From Zopfochytrium polystomum (lineage: Eukaryota > Chytridiomycota > Chytridiomycetes > Chytridiales > Chytridiaceae): 64,000 bases of DNA. The stretch is taken from positions 62,001 through 126,000 of the forward strand of contig JAIVFJ010000185.1 of assembly GCA_025765615.1 (NCBI GenBank), in the 5' to 3' direction. A program made the translations under genes and the position numbers. Shown here piece after piece: positions 15,124 through 46,121 of this stretch (positions within the stretch are counted from its first letter, which is position 1; every line of letters begins with the position of its first letter). Under the pieces are notes generated by a model. The model made no database searches. It was not told the DNA's origin and saw nothing but the letters and a program-made list of their open reading frames with translations.

Positions 15124-16983
15124 CACAACGACGCCCAGAAGGGGGACGGCTTTTGCTTTCACCTTGTAAAATAGGACGCCCATGTACAGTAAATGCCTTT
15201 TTTTTCTTTTTTTCCTCTCTTTTTCTTGTTGGCAAGGCGATCTTCTATCTATCCGGGGCTATCAATTTGGGGACGGGGCTTCAATGCCTACACGGAGATC
15301 TCAGGTATAAAGTCTAAATCTTACGCGGGGGGGCTCCCAGTTCTCCAGTTTTCCAAGGCGTTATCAGCCCGCGCAGTCGAACCGACAGCTTTTCCCAACA
15401 TCCCAAGTCGTTAGGAGTGTGTGCGACAGGCGTGCGACAAATCCCAGCAGAAATAAAGCATCCCAAGCTCGATAGCCCGATAACAAGCTTCACACTTTTG
15501 CAAACTCAGCTAAAACCCTCCCCTCCCCGGGGTGCGCTCTGTCAAAAAGAAGACAGGTATGCAAGCTGTCCCCTTGTAACGCTCTCCAAAACCTAAACAC
15601 AGTCGTGAAATCCCCACCCGATCCGAGACTCTGCTGGGTTGATACGGATCCGTCCAAAGAAAAGCAGAGCAAACAGTGTTTTGCTCAACAAACGGTCATT
15701 TTTGGAAGGGCACTCTCAAGGGCAACACAAAGAGAAGAGGGCAGCGGGGAGGTTCTATCTTGTGGAACCTATTCTCAAACACAACAGGATTGGTTAGTAG
15801 CGACCGGACAGACAGGGCGTGGCCAGCGCCCCTCGTTTCAAGGGTGCTGAGGAATCTCGTCGTCGGCGGTCCCAGCGACGGGAACAAACAGTAGCCAAAT
15901 GGTGGGACATACAGGTCGCGGCCCGCGACCAAGGAACCATCGTCGTCGATGGAAAAGCAGGGCATGGGGCCGGGGAGGACGAGACGGACAGGGTGCGACC
16001 TAGCACCCCTCGTCGCCTGGAAGATGAGAGGCTGTTGTTGTTGCCAACGACGACAGGGGAGAGAGACGGGAGTTGGCTATGTAGGGCATCCTGTGTGCTG
16101 GATTATCCATACGCACCTCGGTTGTGGGCAGAGGTGTAAGGCTATGCCTCAATTATCTTACAAAAAATTTAAACCACGACCCAGCCCCGTTCCCAAATTT
16201 TCGATGTGGCTTGAGAAAGCGAGTTCTCGTTATCCGTGCGACATTCCCAAGTGATACTGACAATTCTGTTTGGCTGCGCCACAACCAACGTCCCCAAACG
16301 AAACTTCTCGCTCCTTATTGGTTCCAATTCTCACATGTTGTGAAGCCTGATGGGGAGGCACGAAAAGAAGAAGCATTCACTGACGGTGTGGGCCAGCAGA
16401 TTGTGGTGTCGAGCGACACAAAACCATCATACAACCAATCTTGGCGTTAAACGCTGCAAACAGCCGTCTTCTTCCCTCAACGCGCTGCGCTGCCGCGTCC
16501 CCGCATCTCCGGCAAGCCGCCCGATGCCAGCCGTTGTCCATTCGCGACAGCGAGGACGGCTTTGGCCCGTGCGCAGGAACAAACCGCACAAAACAGACCG
16601 CGAAGCCAAGTAACGGTTGATTCTGACGAAGCCTTCTCGCCCCGCTCGCTTGGTATCGGTCAAAGGTCAGTCATGCGGCCACATGAATAGAACGTGGAAT
16701 GGCTGGCGTCATCCTCACCGCCGACCTCAACTTCAGAGGCGCTTTGTTTGTCTGCTTCCGGAAGTCACTTGGTCGACGGGCGCTCGGGACGGCTCTTTCG
16801 GCCCGAAGGGTGCTCGGAGAGGTGAGGCAGAGAGAGAGAGTGTGTGTGTGTGTGTATGTGTGTGTGTGTCTGTGTGCAACGCGTGACAGGCCGAGCCACC
16901 GAGAGACAGACAGGCAGACAGACAGACAGACAGATTGAAGAAGGCGAGACACACACGTGGAAGCAAGCAAGCCAAGCCAAGAA
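15124..16983. other. Intergenic region with a diverged R3 repeat and microsatellites
   Basis: No gene is seen. About 15710-16090 is a diverged copy of the R3 repeat at 6600-6845. A (TG)n tract lies at 16838-16872 and a GACA-type tract at 16905-16935, both just upstream of the decarboxylase start. The immediate upstream sequence presumably holds that gene's promoter. Confidence 0.5.
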
Positions 16984-19564
16984 ATGTCACTGCAGATACT
17001 GGTGCGGCCTGGTTCGGCAGCGACGAGGATAACCGCGACCACAACGGCGACGGCAACGACGACATCGACGATAAGATCATCATCATCATCATCATCATCA
17101 CGTGGCGACGCCGCCGCCGTCGCCGCCGCTGCCGTCACCGCCAGGAGGAGCGTCACTGCGATCTACTACGAACCGCTGCCAAGAATAAGGTCTTCTCCTC
17201 GAATCCGTTTCCTGCCCGCTGCCTCTCGTCGGTCCTTTTCCTCGTCGGCCTCCACCTCCACCTCCTCCTCCTCATCGCACAGCCCCCCAAATCTCTCCTC
17301 GGAGATCGTCGCCGCGTACTGGGCCGCCGTCATGAAGTCCACAAAGGACCCGGACTTTGACCTCGCCCCGGCCTTTGCCCGCGTCGACCCCTTTTCGTCC
17401 TCCGACGACGACGCCTCCATCCGCGACCTCCTCGATCGCGCCACCCGCGCGTCCCGCCGCTCCGCCGGCGACCTCTACCCGCAGCTCCTCGCCCGCCACT
17501 GCCTCGAATTTTACGACGCCCTCGACCTCGATGACGGCCGCCGCAGGTTCCTGCACATCCTCGCTAGGGACTTTGGCGTCAGCCGCGATCGCGTCGTCGA
17601 CAGAGCCAAGGCCGTCATCGCCGCTGCCGCCGTTATCGACGGCGGTGGTGGTGGTGGTGCGGAGGGTGCCGACGAAACTCCATCGCCGAGGGCTGCGCTC
17701 AAGGCCGAGCAGGCCTTAAGGGATGCCCTCGTACCCGCATACCAGCAGTTTTTCGTCAACGTAGGGCAGCTGCCGAACGGCGTCGCCTTCTTGCTCAAAA
17801 TGCGCGCGGACGTGCTGGTATTCAGAACTCGATCGAAAGCGTTGACTGTGACTTTAATCGAATAATGAATTCCCAACAAATATCCACGCCAAACACAGAC
17901 ACTCCTCGCCAAACAACCGTCCTCGCCATCAGCACCCTACCTCCGTGCCATCGACGACACGCTCAAGTCACTTCTCCAATCACTTTTCGCAATGAGCCAA
18001 CTCGACCTCGCCCGCATCACCTGGACGTCGCCCGCCGCGGTCCTCGAAAAGGTACGTTTGACTGAACGCCCGTACCGCCAGTTACACCTGCCGCTCCTAT
18101 CCGTTTTCCCCCCCTCGATATCTCAAAGATTATCAAATACGAAGCCGTCCACGCCATCCCTTCGTGGCAGGACCTGAAACAGCGCCTCGGCCCCGGCCGC
18201 CTCTGCTACGCTTTTTTCCACCGCGAGCTGCCCACCGAGCCGCTCACGTTCATCGAGGTCGCGCTCCTCAAGGAGATTGAGTGGAACGTCCACCGCATCA
18301 TCACGGACCCGGACCCGCTGGACGTGTCGAGCGAGTTCCGCGTCGCCGTGTTTTACTCGATTTCGTCGACGCAGAGGGGACTGGCTGGCGTCGATCTGGG
18401 AAACTTGTGAGCGTCGTCGTCCTCTTCTGCCCGCCCCCCTTGATTTCTTTTTGCGTTACTCGATGGGGGACTTGCGGCGCGTTTGCCGCCTTACCACGAA
18501 AAATCTCCCCACTAAAAACAATACCCGGCAAAACTTGTATGAAATACAGCCTCATTAAACGAGTCGTCAAAGAAATCCAAGCGCTCCATCCTACCGTCAC
18601 GACTTTCTGCACCCTGTCGCCCATCCCGGGCTTCCGCACGTGGCTCGACACGCGCCTCCGTCTTCCAAACGGAGTCGAGACGCTCCTCCTTCCCGACGAA
18701 GCCGACGCCTTGACGCGGAAGGTGCCGGGATCAGCGGCGCCCATCTCGGCGCTGCAGGTGAGAACTGCAGGAGGGAGGAAGGAAGCGATAAATTCGGGGC
18801 GTACTAAATTCTGTCGACGCTCTTGCTCGCATACAGACCCTGCTCGCTGAAGAGGATTGGCACGCGCGACCAGAGTCAGCAGAGTTTTTGAAGCCCATCG
18901 TCACGCGGCTGTGCGCCCAGTACGTTCTCCTCGAGAAAAAACGGTCGTTTGCACTTGACCCTGTCGGTGAGCGGTCCTTTCCCCAGAAACTTTGGTGTTT
19001 TTCGTTCGCCGCACCTTGCCACTCGCGATGGCAGCTTTCAACTGTGCGCGCGTTTCCCAAACACCTGACAACCCCCGCGCGTTCCCCTTCCTCCAATGCC
19101 GACAGCAAACTTCCACATCCGCAACGGCGCCTGCGTACACCGCTTAAACTGGCTCGGCGACGTGTCTGGTTCGTACCATCACTCCTGGTTTTTTTTTTTT
19201 TTTTTCCCCCCCGAAGCATTTCTCGGAGTTCTTTTTTCCCCTGAAACAAACCCCACCACCATTTCTTTCCATTTTTTTTTTTGCACCCCCCCCGCGACGC
19301 GGCCGCGTGCCAGCCAAAGGCCTCACGCAGTCCTACGGCCTCATGATCAACTACGTGTACCTCCTTCCGCACATCGAGCGCAACAACCAGGCGTACCTCC
19401 TCGACGGCACCATCCCCGTCGTCGAGCCGGTCTCGTCTACCCTGCGGTGGGCGTGCCAGGCCGCGGCCGCCGGTGGAGCGGCCGCGGCGCGGGTGAAGCG
19501 CGTCGGTGCCGAGAAGGAGGAGGCCGCCGCTGTTGGGAGCCCCGGAAGTGTGGGGAAGCTGTGA
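16984..19564 (+). CDS. MLYCD: Malonyl-CoA decarboxylase
   Basis: The enzyme converts malonyl-CoA to acetyl-CoA and CO2, removing malonyl-CoA from mitochondria or peroxisomes and so favouring fatty-acid oxidation. Joining 16984-17817, 17899-18051, 18129-18406, 18550-18757, 18837-18966, 19106-19168 and 19314-19564 gives 638 aa in one frame. Family hallmarks in order are GPGRLCYAFFH, VFYSISSTQRGL, LGNFLIKRVVKEIQ, TLSPIPGF, ANFHIRNGA and LMINYVY. The Ser of LSPIPGF and the His of NFH correspond to the catalytic pair known from the human enzyme. Human MLYCD is 493 aa; the excess here is a Ser/Ala/Thr-rich N-terminal extension of ~110 residues, possibly a mitochondrial presequence, and a Gly run. 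The protein ends in GKL, a weak match to the peroxisomal PTS1 (human ends SKL). Intron 6 uses the donor GTTCGT. The first ATG in frame is at 16984. Confidence 0.93.
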
Positions 19565-40734: not shown

Positions 40735-43700
40735 ATGACCAGCCAAACAGCTGTGTGGATTGTGGCATTTGTTTACAATGACCTTGGACGGAAGATCCAC
40801 GTTCCAACCAACACAAGTTTTGATGGCTTGCTTCAGCTTGTGGCTGCAAGGTTCCAGATCTCTCCTGCCATTGAGTTGGTGTACATGGACTCTGCCACCA
40901 GCAATTCAATGGTCCTTGACACTAGTGATGATCTGCCCAGTCTGCTTTCTCAGAATTACAAGTGGAAAGTAAGGTTCTTCCTTTTTGTCCTGGATTCTCT
41001 CTTTGTTTCAGTGTGAATTGAACCTCATGTAATTCAAGGTGCTCACCCTGAGCTCCAGTGCCACTGGAAATGTCGCCCCTGCTGCTGCTGGCACAAACAA
41101 CCCAAGTGTAGTGGCTGCTCCTGCTGCTCCTTCTGCCCATGCTGCCCATGGTGCCCCTGCCGCCCCCACTGCTCCTGCTGCTCCCGTTGCTCCCGTTGTA
41201 GGCTCTGGTGGCAACTCAAATGTGGCAGCTGCTGTTGGGGAGAGCTACGACAAGAGTCTTCCACTGAAGAAAGGTGAGGAACCTGATTCAATTCGTTGCC
41301 TCAATGGCTCATGGCCAATTCCTTGGCTTGTTTTCTTTACTCTCCCAGATAAATGGATTGAGCTGATTCCAGATGACTGGGAATGCAAAAGCAATGTTCA
41401 AAAACACCCCTTTTTCATCAGGTTTGTTCCTTATTACGCTTCTCCCTGTGGCTTGCTCTCAAATCCTTGTCAGCTACCGGCAAGCGTCTGAGGCAGGTTT
41501 TGCCCGGAGCCTGTTTGACAGAATGAAGATCACCCTGTTGGAAGCCTACACTGGATCTGACCTCACTGAGGAGTCCAGGATGGCTGCAAGACATGCTTTT
41601 TTGGATGCAGAGTGCCTGGCCTATGCCCAGGATTGGGGAATCAACTCCATGTCTGGACTGTTTCACTCCTCAGTGATCATTCTCCTGTGTACTGATGCAA
41701 GCATGGTCAGAATGCAAAAGGCTGACAAAGAGCCTGACAACTGCTTGTTAGAAGTGAGTTTGTTGTCCCCATCGGTATTCCCCTCTGACAAATGCATCCA
41801 GTGGGAGCTTGCACTTCAGATGAAGAAAGAAAGAGGCCATGACATCCTTCCTGTTCTTCTTTCATGCCAAGATGAGGCACCCTTGGCAAATGGCAAAAAG
41901 GCAAAGGTCATGGTGGACTTCAGCACCTTTGATCTCAAGAAATTTCCTGACCACCCCCATGCCCACCCTTTAAGTCCTGGCCTCCAATCTGTGTCTCAAA
42001 CAATCAAGATGATTTTAGAGCTGAATGGGCCAAAGGCAAATCCTGAGAATGATGTAATGAAGTGCGTGCCAACACTTTTTTTTTTTTAAATTACCTCTTT
42101 CATTACTTACACATGCCCTTCTTTTAACCTTCACAGGATTGTGACTGAAGCCAGAGAAGTGTACAGTCGCCGTAAGGCTGAATTGAAAACACCTAGTCCA
42201 AGCCAAGATATTTCACTTTCCAGATCTAGTTTGGCTGAATTGGAGAACTGGTTGTCCCCCCTGTCTGAATTCATGGATCTTGAGAGGGAGGCTCTCCTGA
42301 AGAATGTGCTTTCTGGATCCAGGGTGTGGTTGCTCAAGAGAGTGTTCAAATTTCTTTCTCCAGATGATCCCCCTGCTGCCAGCGCCAACAGGGTGATGTG
42401 GTTGAAAGGCGTGGCTGGAGTGGGCAAGTCTGTGATGGCTGCCATGGTCTCCAGGGAGCTGCAGGCGCAGGGGATGCTTGGTGGCTTGTTCTTTTGCAAG
42501 CATGATGACGAGTGTCGCAGCAGTGCTCGAAACCTGGTCTTGACTCTTGTGTTTGGTCTTGCAAAGTTTAGTCTTCAGTATGGAGAGATTCTGCTTCAAG
42601 TCAAGCAAGACAATCCAGATATTCTGTCCAGATCTGTGTTTGAGATGATGAAAGTATTGCTTGTTAAGCCATTGCAGAAGGTTGTTGAAAGCAAGAAGCT
42701 GAATGTACCTGTGGTCCTGGTTGTGGATGCCCTGGATGAGTGTGGAGCCATCGGAAAGAGGAATGAGATCCTTGCAGTCTTTCAGGAACTGAACAGGCTG
42801 CTTCCAGTCAATGTGAAGATGCTGGTGACTGGACGCCCTGAAGCAGATATTGTGAAAGCCTTTGAAAAGATTCCATTTGAGGAAATTGAGCCAACTGCTG
42901 AAGAGAACACTCAGGACCAGATCGATTTCACAAGGAATTATCTCAGAACCTTGAGCATGAAGCAATCTGTGATTGATAAGGGATCTGAGATTCTGGTGTC
43001 AAAGTCTGCTGGAATTTTTGTCTGGCTTGTGACTGCTTGCACTTATTTGCAGAAATTGGAGACTGAAGAAATCACTCTTGAGCAAATTCAAGATCTTACT
43101 GAGGGTGACAAGATGGATGGAAGCATTGACTTGATGTATGACAGAATATTCAATGGCATCCTTCAGTCGATCAAAGCGAGTTTTTTGGAAAATCTTCTTT
43201 GTGCTGTGTTGTCCATCATTGTTCTTGCCTATGAACCTCTGACTGCAGCAGCCATTGTCTCTCTGATGGACAAGGAGATACCTGAAAATGTGATGAGGTG
43301 CATCCGGATGCTTGATCCTATCCTTGTGCTTGATGGTTCCACCAAGAAGATTAGGATTTTCCACAAGTCTGTTAAGGACTACCTGATAAATCCTGAAAGA
43401 TGCCAGTTGTCTCTTCGCATTGACTCGAAAAGTAGCCACTCTGAATTTGCTAGGCTGTGCATCAGTGCACTGGACGAAAACCTGAAATTTAATATGTGTG
43501 ATCTGCCATTCTCAGAATTCCATTCTGAGATTCCTGATTTTGATGCGAAAGTGCAGAAAGGAATCCCTGAGCATGTCAGATACGCAGTGAAGAACTTCTG
43601 GGAGCACTGCTTTGACTCCTCAGTGGAAACTACCAGTGAGATTATTAAAGTGGAAGCGAATCAACCCTCAGAGGCATCGTCCCCCAAACAAGACACAGAG

Positions 43701-46121
43701 GCCAAAGGAAAGAAATCATTTTTCAGTTCGTTCAAGAAGCATGGGAGGACAAAAGATGAAGCCCAGCCAAGTGCAGAAATGCGGAAAGATCCAGTCAAGA
43801 GTGCTGCCCCTTTGCTTGTGACATCCTTCAGCAAATTCTTTCAGATTGATCAGACTCTTTTTGCTGAATTGGAAGCATTTATTGTGCAACATGGACATCA
43901 CTTCTTGGAAGCATGCAGCTTGCTAGACTCACTCCATTTGGTGATTCCTGCCATGACAAAGCTCCAGAGTCTTGCCACTATTCCTGAAAAGAAAGGATTG
44001 TACACCCTGATGGAAGACATGAAAAGGGTTTTGCAAAAGTTTCTCATTCCACTCAGGGCATCTGCGTTGCAAGTTTACTTCACTGCTGTTCCATTCTCCC
44101 CAAGTGACTCTGAATTTTTTAAAACATTTGTTCAGAATGTGCCTGGAAGTGTGTCATGCCTGAAAGTTGTAAAGGGGCAACCAAAATCTTGGCCTTCCTG
44201 TTTGAATATTCTTGAGGGACACACTGAGTATGTCCAGTCTGCAGCATTCAGTCCTGATGGGCAGTTTGTTGTGTCTTCTGGAAGTGAGGACAAGACAGTC
44301 AGAATTTGGAATGCTTCCACTGGTCAGGAGCTGCATAAGCTGGAGGGACACACTGATCGTGTCCACTCTGCAGTATTCAGTCCTGATGGGCAGTTTGTTG
44401 TGTCTGGAAGTTGGGACGAGACAGTCAGGATTTGGAATGCTTTCACTGGTCAGGAGCTGCATAAGCTGGAGGGACACACTAGTCGTGTCCACTCTGCAGC
44501 ATTCAGTCCTGATGGGCAGTTTGTTGTGTCTGGAAGTTGGGACAAGACAGTCAGGATTTGGAGTGCTTCCACTGGCCAGGAGCTGCATAAGCTGGAGGGA
44601 CACACTTGGAATGTCACCTCTGCAGCATTCAGTCCTGATGGCCAGTTTGTTGTGTCTGGAAGTGCGGACCGAACAGTCAGGATTTGGAATGTTTCCACTG
44701 GCCAGGACCTGCATAAGCCTGAGGGACACTCTGGTTCTGTCTCCTCTGCAGCATTCAGTCCTGATGGGCAGTTTGTTGTGTCTGGAAGTGATGACGAGAC
44801 AGTCAGGATTTGGAATGCTTCCACTGGTCAGGAGCTGCATAAGCTGGAGGGACACACTGATCGTGTCCACTCTGCAGCATTCAGTCCTGATGGCCAGTTT
44901 GTTGTGTCTGGAAGTAGTGACAAGACAGTCAGGATTTGGAATGCTTCCACTGGCCAGGAGCTGCATAAGCTGGAGGGACACACTGATCGTGTCCACTCTG
45001 CAGCATTCAGTCCTGATGGCCAGTTTGTTGTGTCTGGAAGTGAGGACCGAACAGTCAGGATTTGGAATGCTTCCACTGGCCAGGAGCTGCGTAAGCTTAA
45101 GGGACACACTCGTGATGTCTTCTCTGCAGCATTCAGTCCTGATGGGCAGTTTGTTGTGTCTGGAAGTAGTGACAAGACAGTCAGGATTTGGAATGTTTCC
45201 ACTGGCCAGGACCTGCATAAGCCTGAGGGACACTCTGGTTGGGTCTTCTCTGCAGCATTCAGTCCTGATGGGCAGTTTGTTGTGTCTGGAAGTACTGACA
45301 AGACAGTCAGGATTTGGAATGCTTCCACTGGTCAGGAGCTGCATAAGCTGGAGGGACACAGTGATTGTGTCTTCTCTGCAGCATTCAGTCCTGATGGCCA
45401 GTTTGTTGTGTCTGGAAGTTGGGACAAGACAGTCAGGATTTGGAATGCTTCCACTGGTCAGGAGCTGCATAAGCTGGAGGGACACACTGATCATGTCTAC
45501 ACTGCAGCATTTAGTCCTGATGGGCAGTTTGTTGTGTCTGGAGGCGGGCAGATTTTTTTGTATGTAAGTGGTCGTGACACGACAGTCAGGATTTGGAATG
45601 CTTCCACTGGCCAGGAGCTGCGTAAGCTTAAGGGACACACTCGTGATGTCTTCTCTGCAGCATTCAGTCCTGATGGGCAGTTTGTTGTGTCTGGAAGCCG
45701 TGACAAGACAGTCAGGATTTGGAATGCTTCGACTGGCCAGGAGCTGCATAGGCTGGACGGTTTTTCATTCACAAAGCATCATGGATTTAGTGCTGATGGG
45801 CAATGTGTTTTTTTGAAGGACAGAAATGGCAAAAGAATATTTGTCAAGCTTCGAACAGCATTGCCGGTGGACAGAAGTGAAATCACACTCACAGGTCCAT
45901 GCCTGGCACACAACTTCAGTGCACGTAATTTGTCAGGAGAGCGACTGCAGAGTGAGGAAGGGGTTCTTGAATCTGTGATAAGTGATGGTGTTTGGTTCAA
46001 CTTCAATGTCACAAAAGTCTGTATCTGGCTTCCACCTGAATTTCGTGGTAGATTCCAGCTCCTCTCAAGCCGAAATATGTTCACTTTGGGGCAAGGCTTT
46101 TCTTCTGCCATTCAATTTTGA
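40735..46121 (+). CDS. TIR-NACHT-WD40 NLR-type receptor
   Basis: Exons 40735-40968, 41039-41273, 41349-41421, 41474-41753, 41802-42061 and 42137-46121 keep one frame for 1,688 aa. Order of parts: a ubiquitin/PB1-like beta-grasp region (1-~85); an Ala/Pro linker; a TIR domain (~175-345) opening with FFISYRQASEAGFARSLFD and with LLEWELA holding the probable catalytic Glu (E274 or E276); and a NACHT NTPase with Walker A GVAGVGKS (452-459), Walker B VVDALDEC (556-563) and the sensor TGRPEAD. A helical arm follows, then the fungal pre-WD segment ASALQVYFTAVPFSPSDSEF, and twelve WD40 repeats (~1050-1570). STAND proteins of this kind oligomerise on ligand binding, and here the TIR would be the effector (NADase or signalling). 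The introns were placed by phase; exon 3 to exon 4 joins within the Ser of ISYR. Codon use is A/T-richer than in the metabolic genes. An AATAAA lies at 46174. Confidence 0.9.
44205..45765 (+). repeat. Tandem 126-bp repeats encoding 12 WD40 units
   Basis: Twelve head-to-tail units of about 126 bases (42 codons) lie within the NLR gene. Unit cores such as FSPDGQFVVSGS and TVRIWNASTGQEL are almost invariant at both DNA and protein level. Differences concentrate at the two residues after GHT/GHS, the residue after the next Val, and the residue(s) around the SGSxDx turn. Unit 11 has an insertion of about nine residues near 45542-45570. Near-identity of the units points to recent unequal crossing-over or gene conversion. 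Confidence 0.92.

Follow-up and report, generated by a model that had tools for sequence, protein, structure and literature searches.

The question of TIR effectors in a chytrid

Does an early-diverging fungus use TIR domains as effectors of nucleotide-binding oligomerization domain-like receptors (NLRs)? The question is raised by a gene in a 64,000-nucleotide stretch of Zopfochytrium polystomum DNA (contig JAIVFJ010000185.1, positions 62,001 to 126,000; hereafter the window), which encodes a beta-grasp domain, a TIR domain, a NACHT ATPase and a WD40 array in this order. We consider it probable that this gene specifies a fungal NLR whose effector is a TIR domain, that it belongs to a set of at least 73 beta-grasp/TIR/NACHT loci in the genome, and that it acts by the mechanism proposed below. 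The NLR reading is based on the architecture, the TIR profile match and predicted fold, a conserved glutamate, constraint on the TIR and NACHT domains, and concentrated variation among the WD40 repeats. A fungal NLR with a TIR domain is of a known kind; the size of the family and the variability of its sensor make it more interesting.

The first-pass annotation, made from the letters alone, had described a fungal, six-exon, in-frame gene with NACHT Walker A and B motifs and 12 WD40 units, and all of these elements were borne out. The source is a chytrid of the order Chytridiales, and the three best-matching relatives are likewise proteins of Z. polystomum. Five introns, all with GT-AG ends (70, 75, 52, 48 and 75 nucleotides), leave a single open frame, 1688 codons long and closed by a stop. 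The ATPase exceeded the Pfam cut-offs for both NPHP3_N (89.9 bits; cut-off 24.8) and NACHT (27.6 bits; cut-off 26.7), with both Walker motifs located, and Pfam together with repeat analysis gave 12 WD40 repeats, unit 1 carrying one extra residue and unit 11 being disrupted over nine residues. The Pfam matches follow the layout of fungal NLRs, namely an N-terminal effector, a NACHT/NB-ARC domain and C-terminal repeats.

The TIR domain and its candidate catalytic glutamate

Identification of the effector as a TIR domain held on two grounds, the Pfam profile (TIR_2, 34.7 bits; cut-off 28) and the predicted fold of relatives. An AlphaFold2 model of the TIR of P0032, a deposited relative 60% identical to the window TIR, reached a mean predicted local distance difference test (pLDDT) score of 74.2 and a predicted template modelling (pTM) score of 0.74, and all 50 rows of its structure comparison were TIR proteins. 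The nearest folds include SARM1 and RUN1, which cleave nicotinamide adenine dinucleotide (NAD+), and also the adaptor TIRs MAL and MyD88; three further rows (8ifl, 8fex and 8spo) are short-Argonaute entries. At the sequence level, a nine-sequence alignment searched against the PDB gave a sole profile match, the CRISPR-associated TIR Cat1 (E 0.25), while the deposited relatives with the window stretch gave 16 matches (14 SARM1, one worm tir-1 and one ribosomal protein; best E 0.08). In both alignments E274 fell on a glutamate, which in SARM1 is that of the HKE motif. This motif contains E642, and a PDB title describes SARM1 E642A as an NAD+-bound mutant. Within the family, E274 was kept in 27 of 27 places (the best-matching ones plus C60), and E276 was seen in 26 of them. 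PDB searches with single sequences found no TIR or PB1 relative and returned one chance-level plastocyanin match; the TIR region alone gave no match at E 0.001 among 665 candidate proteins of similar full length, a search limited by its word filter, which missed the TIR protein P0004 and is not evidence of absence.

A second TIR type was present in eight of the eight best TIR_2 loci examined (L001-L008), scoring up to 85.6 bits and carrying motifs such as AMISYAWADKD or VMISYCW; by visual comparison it is similar to that of Polychytrium P0006. Separately, intron 4, which directly follows the E274 codon, has GT and AG ends in all 26 measurable places and a length divisible by three in 25 of 26. 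Its retention, which would add 16 residues beside E274, was considered as a switch but is not supported, since an in-frame stop interrupts 20 of the 26 introns.

A recurrent domain order across the genome

Copy numbers for the genome are lower bounds: 150 of 210 TIR matches were listed, corresponding to at least 99 loci, and 90 of 282 NACHT candidates were scored, corresponding to at least 90. The beta-grasp exon was found at at least 121 loci (123 matches). At 73 of the 90 scored NACHT loci the beta-grasp exon and the TIR lay upstream on the same strand, in the order of the window gene; a further three had the TIR only, 10 the beta-grasp exon only and four neither. TIR and NACHT matches were separated by 16-613 nucleotides on the same strand at 76 loci, against a chance expectation, for 99 TIR loci in 80 Mb, of about 0.14 of 90 NACHT loci with a same-strand TIR within 2.5 kb upstream. 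Because the beta-grasp/TIR/NACHT order recurs at 73 places, a chance arrangement is excluded. Four paralogues (C59, C175, C60 and C104) were examined for the WD40 array, and each of them has it. Some family pairs had equal or near-equal scores (C66/C191, two of C83, two of C18), and may be recent duplicates or alternative assembly haplotypes.

Relative to the window gene, the median ratio of nonsynonymous to synonymous substitution rates (dN/dS) was 0.23 for the TIR, 0.23 for the NACHT and 0.40 for the beta-grasp part, which reached up to 1.76 between near-identical pairs. On these ratios, the TIR and NACHT domains evolve under constraint. Nine of 33 locus rows were excluded: the window's own copy (two rows), second rows for places that another row represents (L033, L035), second copies or rows among near-equal copies (L015, L018, L030, L034) and the broken C542 copy (L020). 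Synonymous changes were saturated in L042, and in the beta-grasp part of L021 as well; this part was missing in L023 and L038.

Variation and exchange of the WD40 repeats

In the window gene nine WD40 units are regular, and these are on average 90% identical in DNA and 84% in residues. Variation clusters at positions 4, 5 and 7 of the repeat, beside an invariant V6, and at 23 and 25, around D24. For the NWD repeats of Podospora, the cited portion of the study by Paoletti and co-workers reports four codons under strong positive selection, 7 and 9 (around 8) and 25 and 27 (around 26), with further codons less strongly selected (PMC1805685). These four, fixed beforehand from the same portion, correspond with an offset of two to codons 5, 7, 23 and 25 here. 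Among 31 units from three genes, 3 of 111,930 four-position sets were as variable as the fixed one, and 6 of 111,930 after a fourth gene extended the set to 43 units; the four codons formed 31 combinations in the 31 units and 42 in the 43. Counted together, they gave a ratio of nonsynonymous to synonymous differences (pN/pS) of 1.74 versus 0.66 for the remaining codons. The genes compared have the very similar repeats, hypervariable at the counterparts of codons 7, 9, 25 and 27, that mark the HNWD type.

Units of different genes were about as alike as units of the same gene. Between the window, C59 and C175 genes unit identity was 0.89-0.90, compared with 0.90-0.91 within genes, and window units matched those of C104 at 0.83, compared with 0.82 within C104. 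This likeness exists despite diverged TIR DNA (identity to the window is no more than 74% for C59 and 67% for C104; rows L039 and L022), and is expected from repeat exchange between loci; strong constraint on the repeat could also contribute.

The N-terminal beta-grasp domain

The annotated ubiquitin/PB1-like region ahead of the TIR was upheld in part: it is a beta-grasp domain by predicted fold, and its identity as a PB1 domain is unproven. In a model of the deposited relative P0033, residues 1-79 adopt this fold with block-mean pLDDT of 78-91, within a weak overall model (mean pLDDT 61.2, pTM 0.45). The top Foldseek match of the domain was the PB1 of Arabidopsis NBR1 (E 8e-4), and in a second structure comparison ubiquitin-like, RA and PB1 chains tied. 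The predicted beta-grasp fold is also that of the PB1 domains of NBR1 and p62; unlike in them, the Pfam score is below the cut-off, also in P0033 (18.2 bits) and P0034 (16.2 bits), and the acidic motif belonging to PB1 domains is kept only partly. We call the domain PB1-like, and would guess that it polymerises or docks to a partner. A beta-grasp domain seemed likely to the eye in Cladochytrium P0004 and was rejected, as P0004 did no better than shuffled sequences against a profile built from 13 Zopfochytrium domains. From these sequence comparisons, we claim the domain for Zopfochytrium only.

Proposed mechanism and alternative explanations

In the favoured explanation, the sensor would be the WD40 propeller: its exposed loop residues vary between repeats, and it would bind a non-self or modified-self protein. 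The NACHT ATPase, as expected of its family, would then oligomerise and gather the TIR domains, helped by the PB1-like domain, perhaps through polymerisation or docking to a partner. The assembled TIRs would cleave NAD+ via E274, leading to cell death or a cyclic ADP-ribose signal. Both the immune role and NAD+ cleavage are what we infer from sequence.

A TIR acting purely as a scaffold, recruiting other TIR proteins without NAD+ cleavage, would be compatible with the lack of the Trp before the SARM1 glutamate, with the second TIR type in the same genome and with the fact that many animal TIRs are adaptors. Conservation of E274 throughout the 27 places speaks against such a role, as do nearest folds that include the NAD+-cleaving SARM1 and RUN1, though the adaptors MAL and MyD88 are also among them; we regard a scaffold as unlikely, yet worth keeping in view. 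Far less credible is that the loci are mainly decaying or selfish multicopy sequence without receptor function. The high copy number, the incomplete loci, one frame-shifted copy and the equal-score pairs might suggest as much, but stops occur in only 2 of 91 NACHT matches, 63 of the 91 lie in open frames of at least 1000 residues, and neither the dN/dS of 0.23 nor variation confined largely to a few WD40 codons fits decay, which is the least probable of the explanations weighed here.

The deposited protein models could be taken to mean that two adjacent genes are present, a partner made of the beta-grasp/TIR exons and a receptor made of the NACHT-WD40 exon: P0033 (exons 1-5, beta-grasp and TIR) is separate from P0001 (NACHT-WD40), both on contigs of equal length (202728), and P0002 begins at the NACHT. 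Against this, P0036 spans exon 5 into the NACHT, P0032 reads about 20 residues into exon 6, the window frame is continuous across the GT-AG intron between exons 5 and 6, Cladochytrium P0004 carries TIR, NACHT and WD40 in a single protein, and the close same-strand spacing of TIR and NACHT recurs at 76 loci. Beta-grasp and TIR exons also sit directly upstream of P0002 in the genome, to which two of its three main pieces are 100% identical and the third 95.6%, its alignment extending beyond the length of the piece, as happens when translation runs through introns. Further upstream in the gene, all four deposited members that cover the exon 3-4 junction (P0032-P0035) show the same HPFFIS/YRQ there, P0034 comprising exons 1-4 and the start of exon 5. 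Sequence evidence supports one gene, joined as first annotated, through the order and tight spacing seen at 73 of 90 loci and through P0033 and P0036; two genes would be highly unlikely. P0033 and P0001 look like two halves of one gene, and such split or truncated models may leave the architecture hardly visible in databases.

Several observations weigh against an NLR with an NAD+-cleaving TIR. PDB sequence matches, with E-values of 0.08 or worse, do not stand alone; the TIR fold was obtained for the relative P0032 and not for the window protein, at a mean pLDDT of 74, and Foldseek with this model gave no match at E <=0.001 (best 1.1e-3). The Trp preceding the SARM1 glutamate (KDWVHKE) is absent here (DNCLLE), which argues against a close copy of the SARM1 active site. 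In the matches listed, 17 of 90 scored NACHT loci were without one or both N-terminal parts, and at least one copy (C542) appears broken. For the WD40 repeats, pN/pS is a simple count and not a formal selection test, codon 25 by itself has a pN (0.31) lower than its pS (0.44), and more non-modal residues occur at codons 3 and 4, which are not among the four, than at codon 25. Lastly, the PB1 profile reached 19.5 bits, below its cut-off of 23.6, and the 13-domain profile scored the proteins of other chytrids (P0004-P0006) no better than shuffled sequence.

Comparison with known systems

Plant TIR-NLRs (RUN1, RPP1, L6) and SARM1 share the TIR fold and the glutamate position with the window protein, the displayed structure rows being 12-24% identical, and have NB-ARC-LRR or ARM-SAM architectures that differ from the chytrid gene. 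Among other chytrids, proteins of Cladochytrium replicatum (P0004), Siphonaria sp. (P0005) and Polychytrium aggregatum (P0006) likewise combine TIR, NPHP3_N/NACHT and WD40. TIR_2 is above the cut-off in the latter two and just below it in Cladochytrium (27.5 versus 28); TIR identity to the window is 35% for P0004 and 26% for P0005, P0006 having no TIR BLAST match. Unlike in the window gene, no beta-grasp domain was detected in them by profile search.

The HNWD family of Podospora anserina (HET-E, HET-D, HET-R) also joins an N-terminal signalling domain to a NACHT and an array of very similar WD40 repeats, and the cited portions describe repeat exchange between loci, as is apparent here, and variation at the corresponding codons (PMC1805685, PMC2873952). 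They count 10 NWD genes, five of them hnwd, compared with at least 73 loci here. A HET effector was considered for the window gene and discarded: none was among its N-terminal Pfam matches at E up to 10, which gave TIR_2 instead. Where HNWD proteins have HET, this family has a TIR_2-type TIR and a beta-grasp domain; judged from its sequences, it evolves like HNWD without being a member, because the HET domain is absent. A ubiquitin-clan domain at the N-terminus of fungal NLRs has a parallel in Crinkler, whose description in the cited passage of PMC9815663 mentions no TIR behind it; no Crinkler was among the Pfam hits of the window N-terminal region.

In their cited portions, surveys of 2010 and 2014 report neither TIR domains (PF01582) among the fungi they covered nor NLRs among chytrids (PMC2939053, PMC4986451), while a 2022 paper gives, in the portion cited, one sentence on TIR-NLRs of Chytridiomycota and notes TIR-like effectors also in Pezizomycotina (PMC9815663). 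Whether the HET domain signals through NAD+ cleavage is described as still open in the cited part of PMC10197012. Among the papers listed by literature searches, none concerned a PB1/ubiquitin-like domain joined to TIR-NACHT in fungi, and the titles and listed abstract lines of the seven papers mentioning Zopfochytrium contained nothing on NLRs. The annotation's view of TIR-NACHT as uncommon in fungi agrees with this literature, but in this genome the combination forms a large family.

We would give an even chance to a wider proposal, that a large repertoire for non-self recognition operates on true TIRs in this chytrid and perhaps in its relatives. It would comprise 73 or more PB1-like-TIR-NACHT receptors in one genome, whose WD40 repeats move between loci and diversify at loop residues known from Podospora HET-E, TIR replacing HET, a PB1-like polymeriser assisting, and the whole hidden by split or truncated models. 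At least 73 loci would place the TIR effector at scale in an early-diverging fungal lineage, and would allow a direct test of whether NAD+ cleavage is a signal of fungal NLRs.

Feature coordinates and neighbouring genes

Table 1. Positions, in window coordinates, of the parts of the TIR-NACHT-WD40 gene and of other frames.
Feature	Position	Strand	Evidence or remark
Six-exon gene	40735-46121	+	stop codon at 46119-46121
Exon 1, residues 1-78, beta-grasp (PB1/ubiquitin-like) domain	40735..40968	+	PB1 profile below cut-off; P0033 model
Exon 2, Ala/Pro-rich linker	41039..41273	+	translation
Exon 3, start of TIR region, HPFFIS at its end	41349..41421	+	translation; junction same in P0032-P0035
Exon 4, first half of TIR, E274 as last codon	41474..41753	+	translation, Pfam
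Pfam TIR_2 match, residues 222-318, across intron 4	41595..41933	+	Pfam
E274, candidate catalytic glutamate	41751..41753	+	aligns with SARM1 HKE and Cat1 glutamate
Intron 4	41754-41801	+	48 nucleotides, in frame, stop-free
Exon 5, second half of TIR	41802..42061	+	translation, Pfam
Exon 6: NACHT, winged-helix-like part, WD40 array, C-terminal region, stop	42137..46121	+	translation
NACHT/NPHP3_N ATPase, residues 443-594	42381..42836	+	Pfam
Walker A GVAGVGKS, residues 452-459	42408..42431	+	sequence
Walker B VVLVVDALDEC, residues 553-563	42711..42743	+	sequence
TANC1-like winged helix, residues 716-800	43200..43454	+	22.8 bits, below cut-off of 27
12 WD40 repeats, array residues 1055-1568	44217..45758	+	Pfam and repeat analysis
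C-terminal region without Pfam match	45759..46118	+	matched by paralogues C59, C175, C104 and, in part, C60
HET-domain frame, 663 residues	32443-34434	-	30.8 bits, cut-off 22.5
OrsD, DEAD and Helicase_C frame, 1797 residues	52452-57845	+	
Malonyl-CoA decarboxylase N-terminal domain frame	16939-17865	+	39.3 bits

The HET-domain frame lies about 6 kb before the TIR gene, and with 28 HET matches in the genome, TIR and HET occur together. The 1797-residue frame, about 9-14 kb from the contig end, resembles telomere-linked RecQ-type helicases; none of four telomere-repeat motifs was found in the terminal 2.7 kb of this contig.

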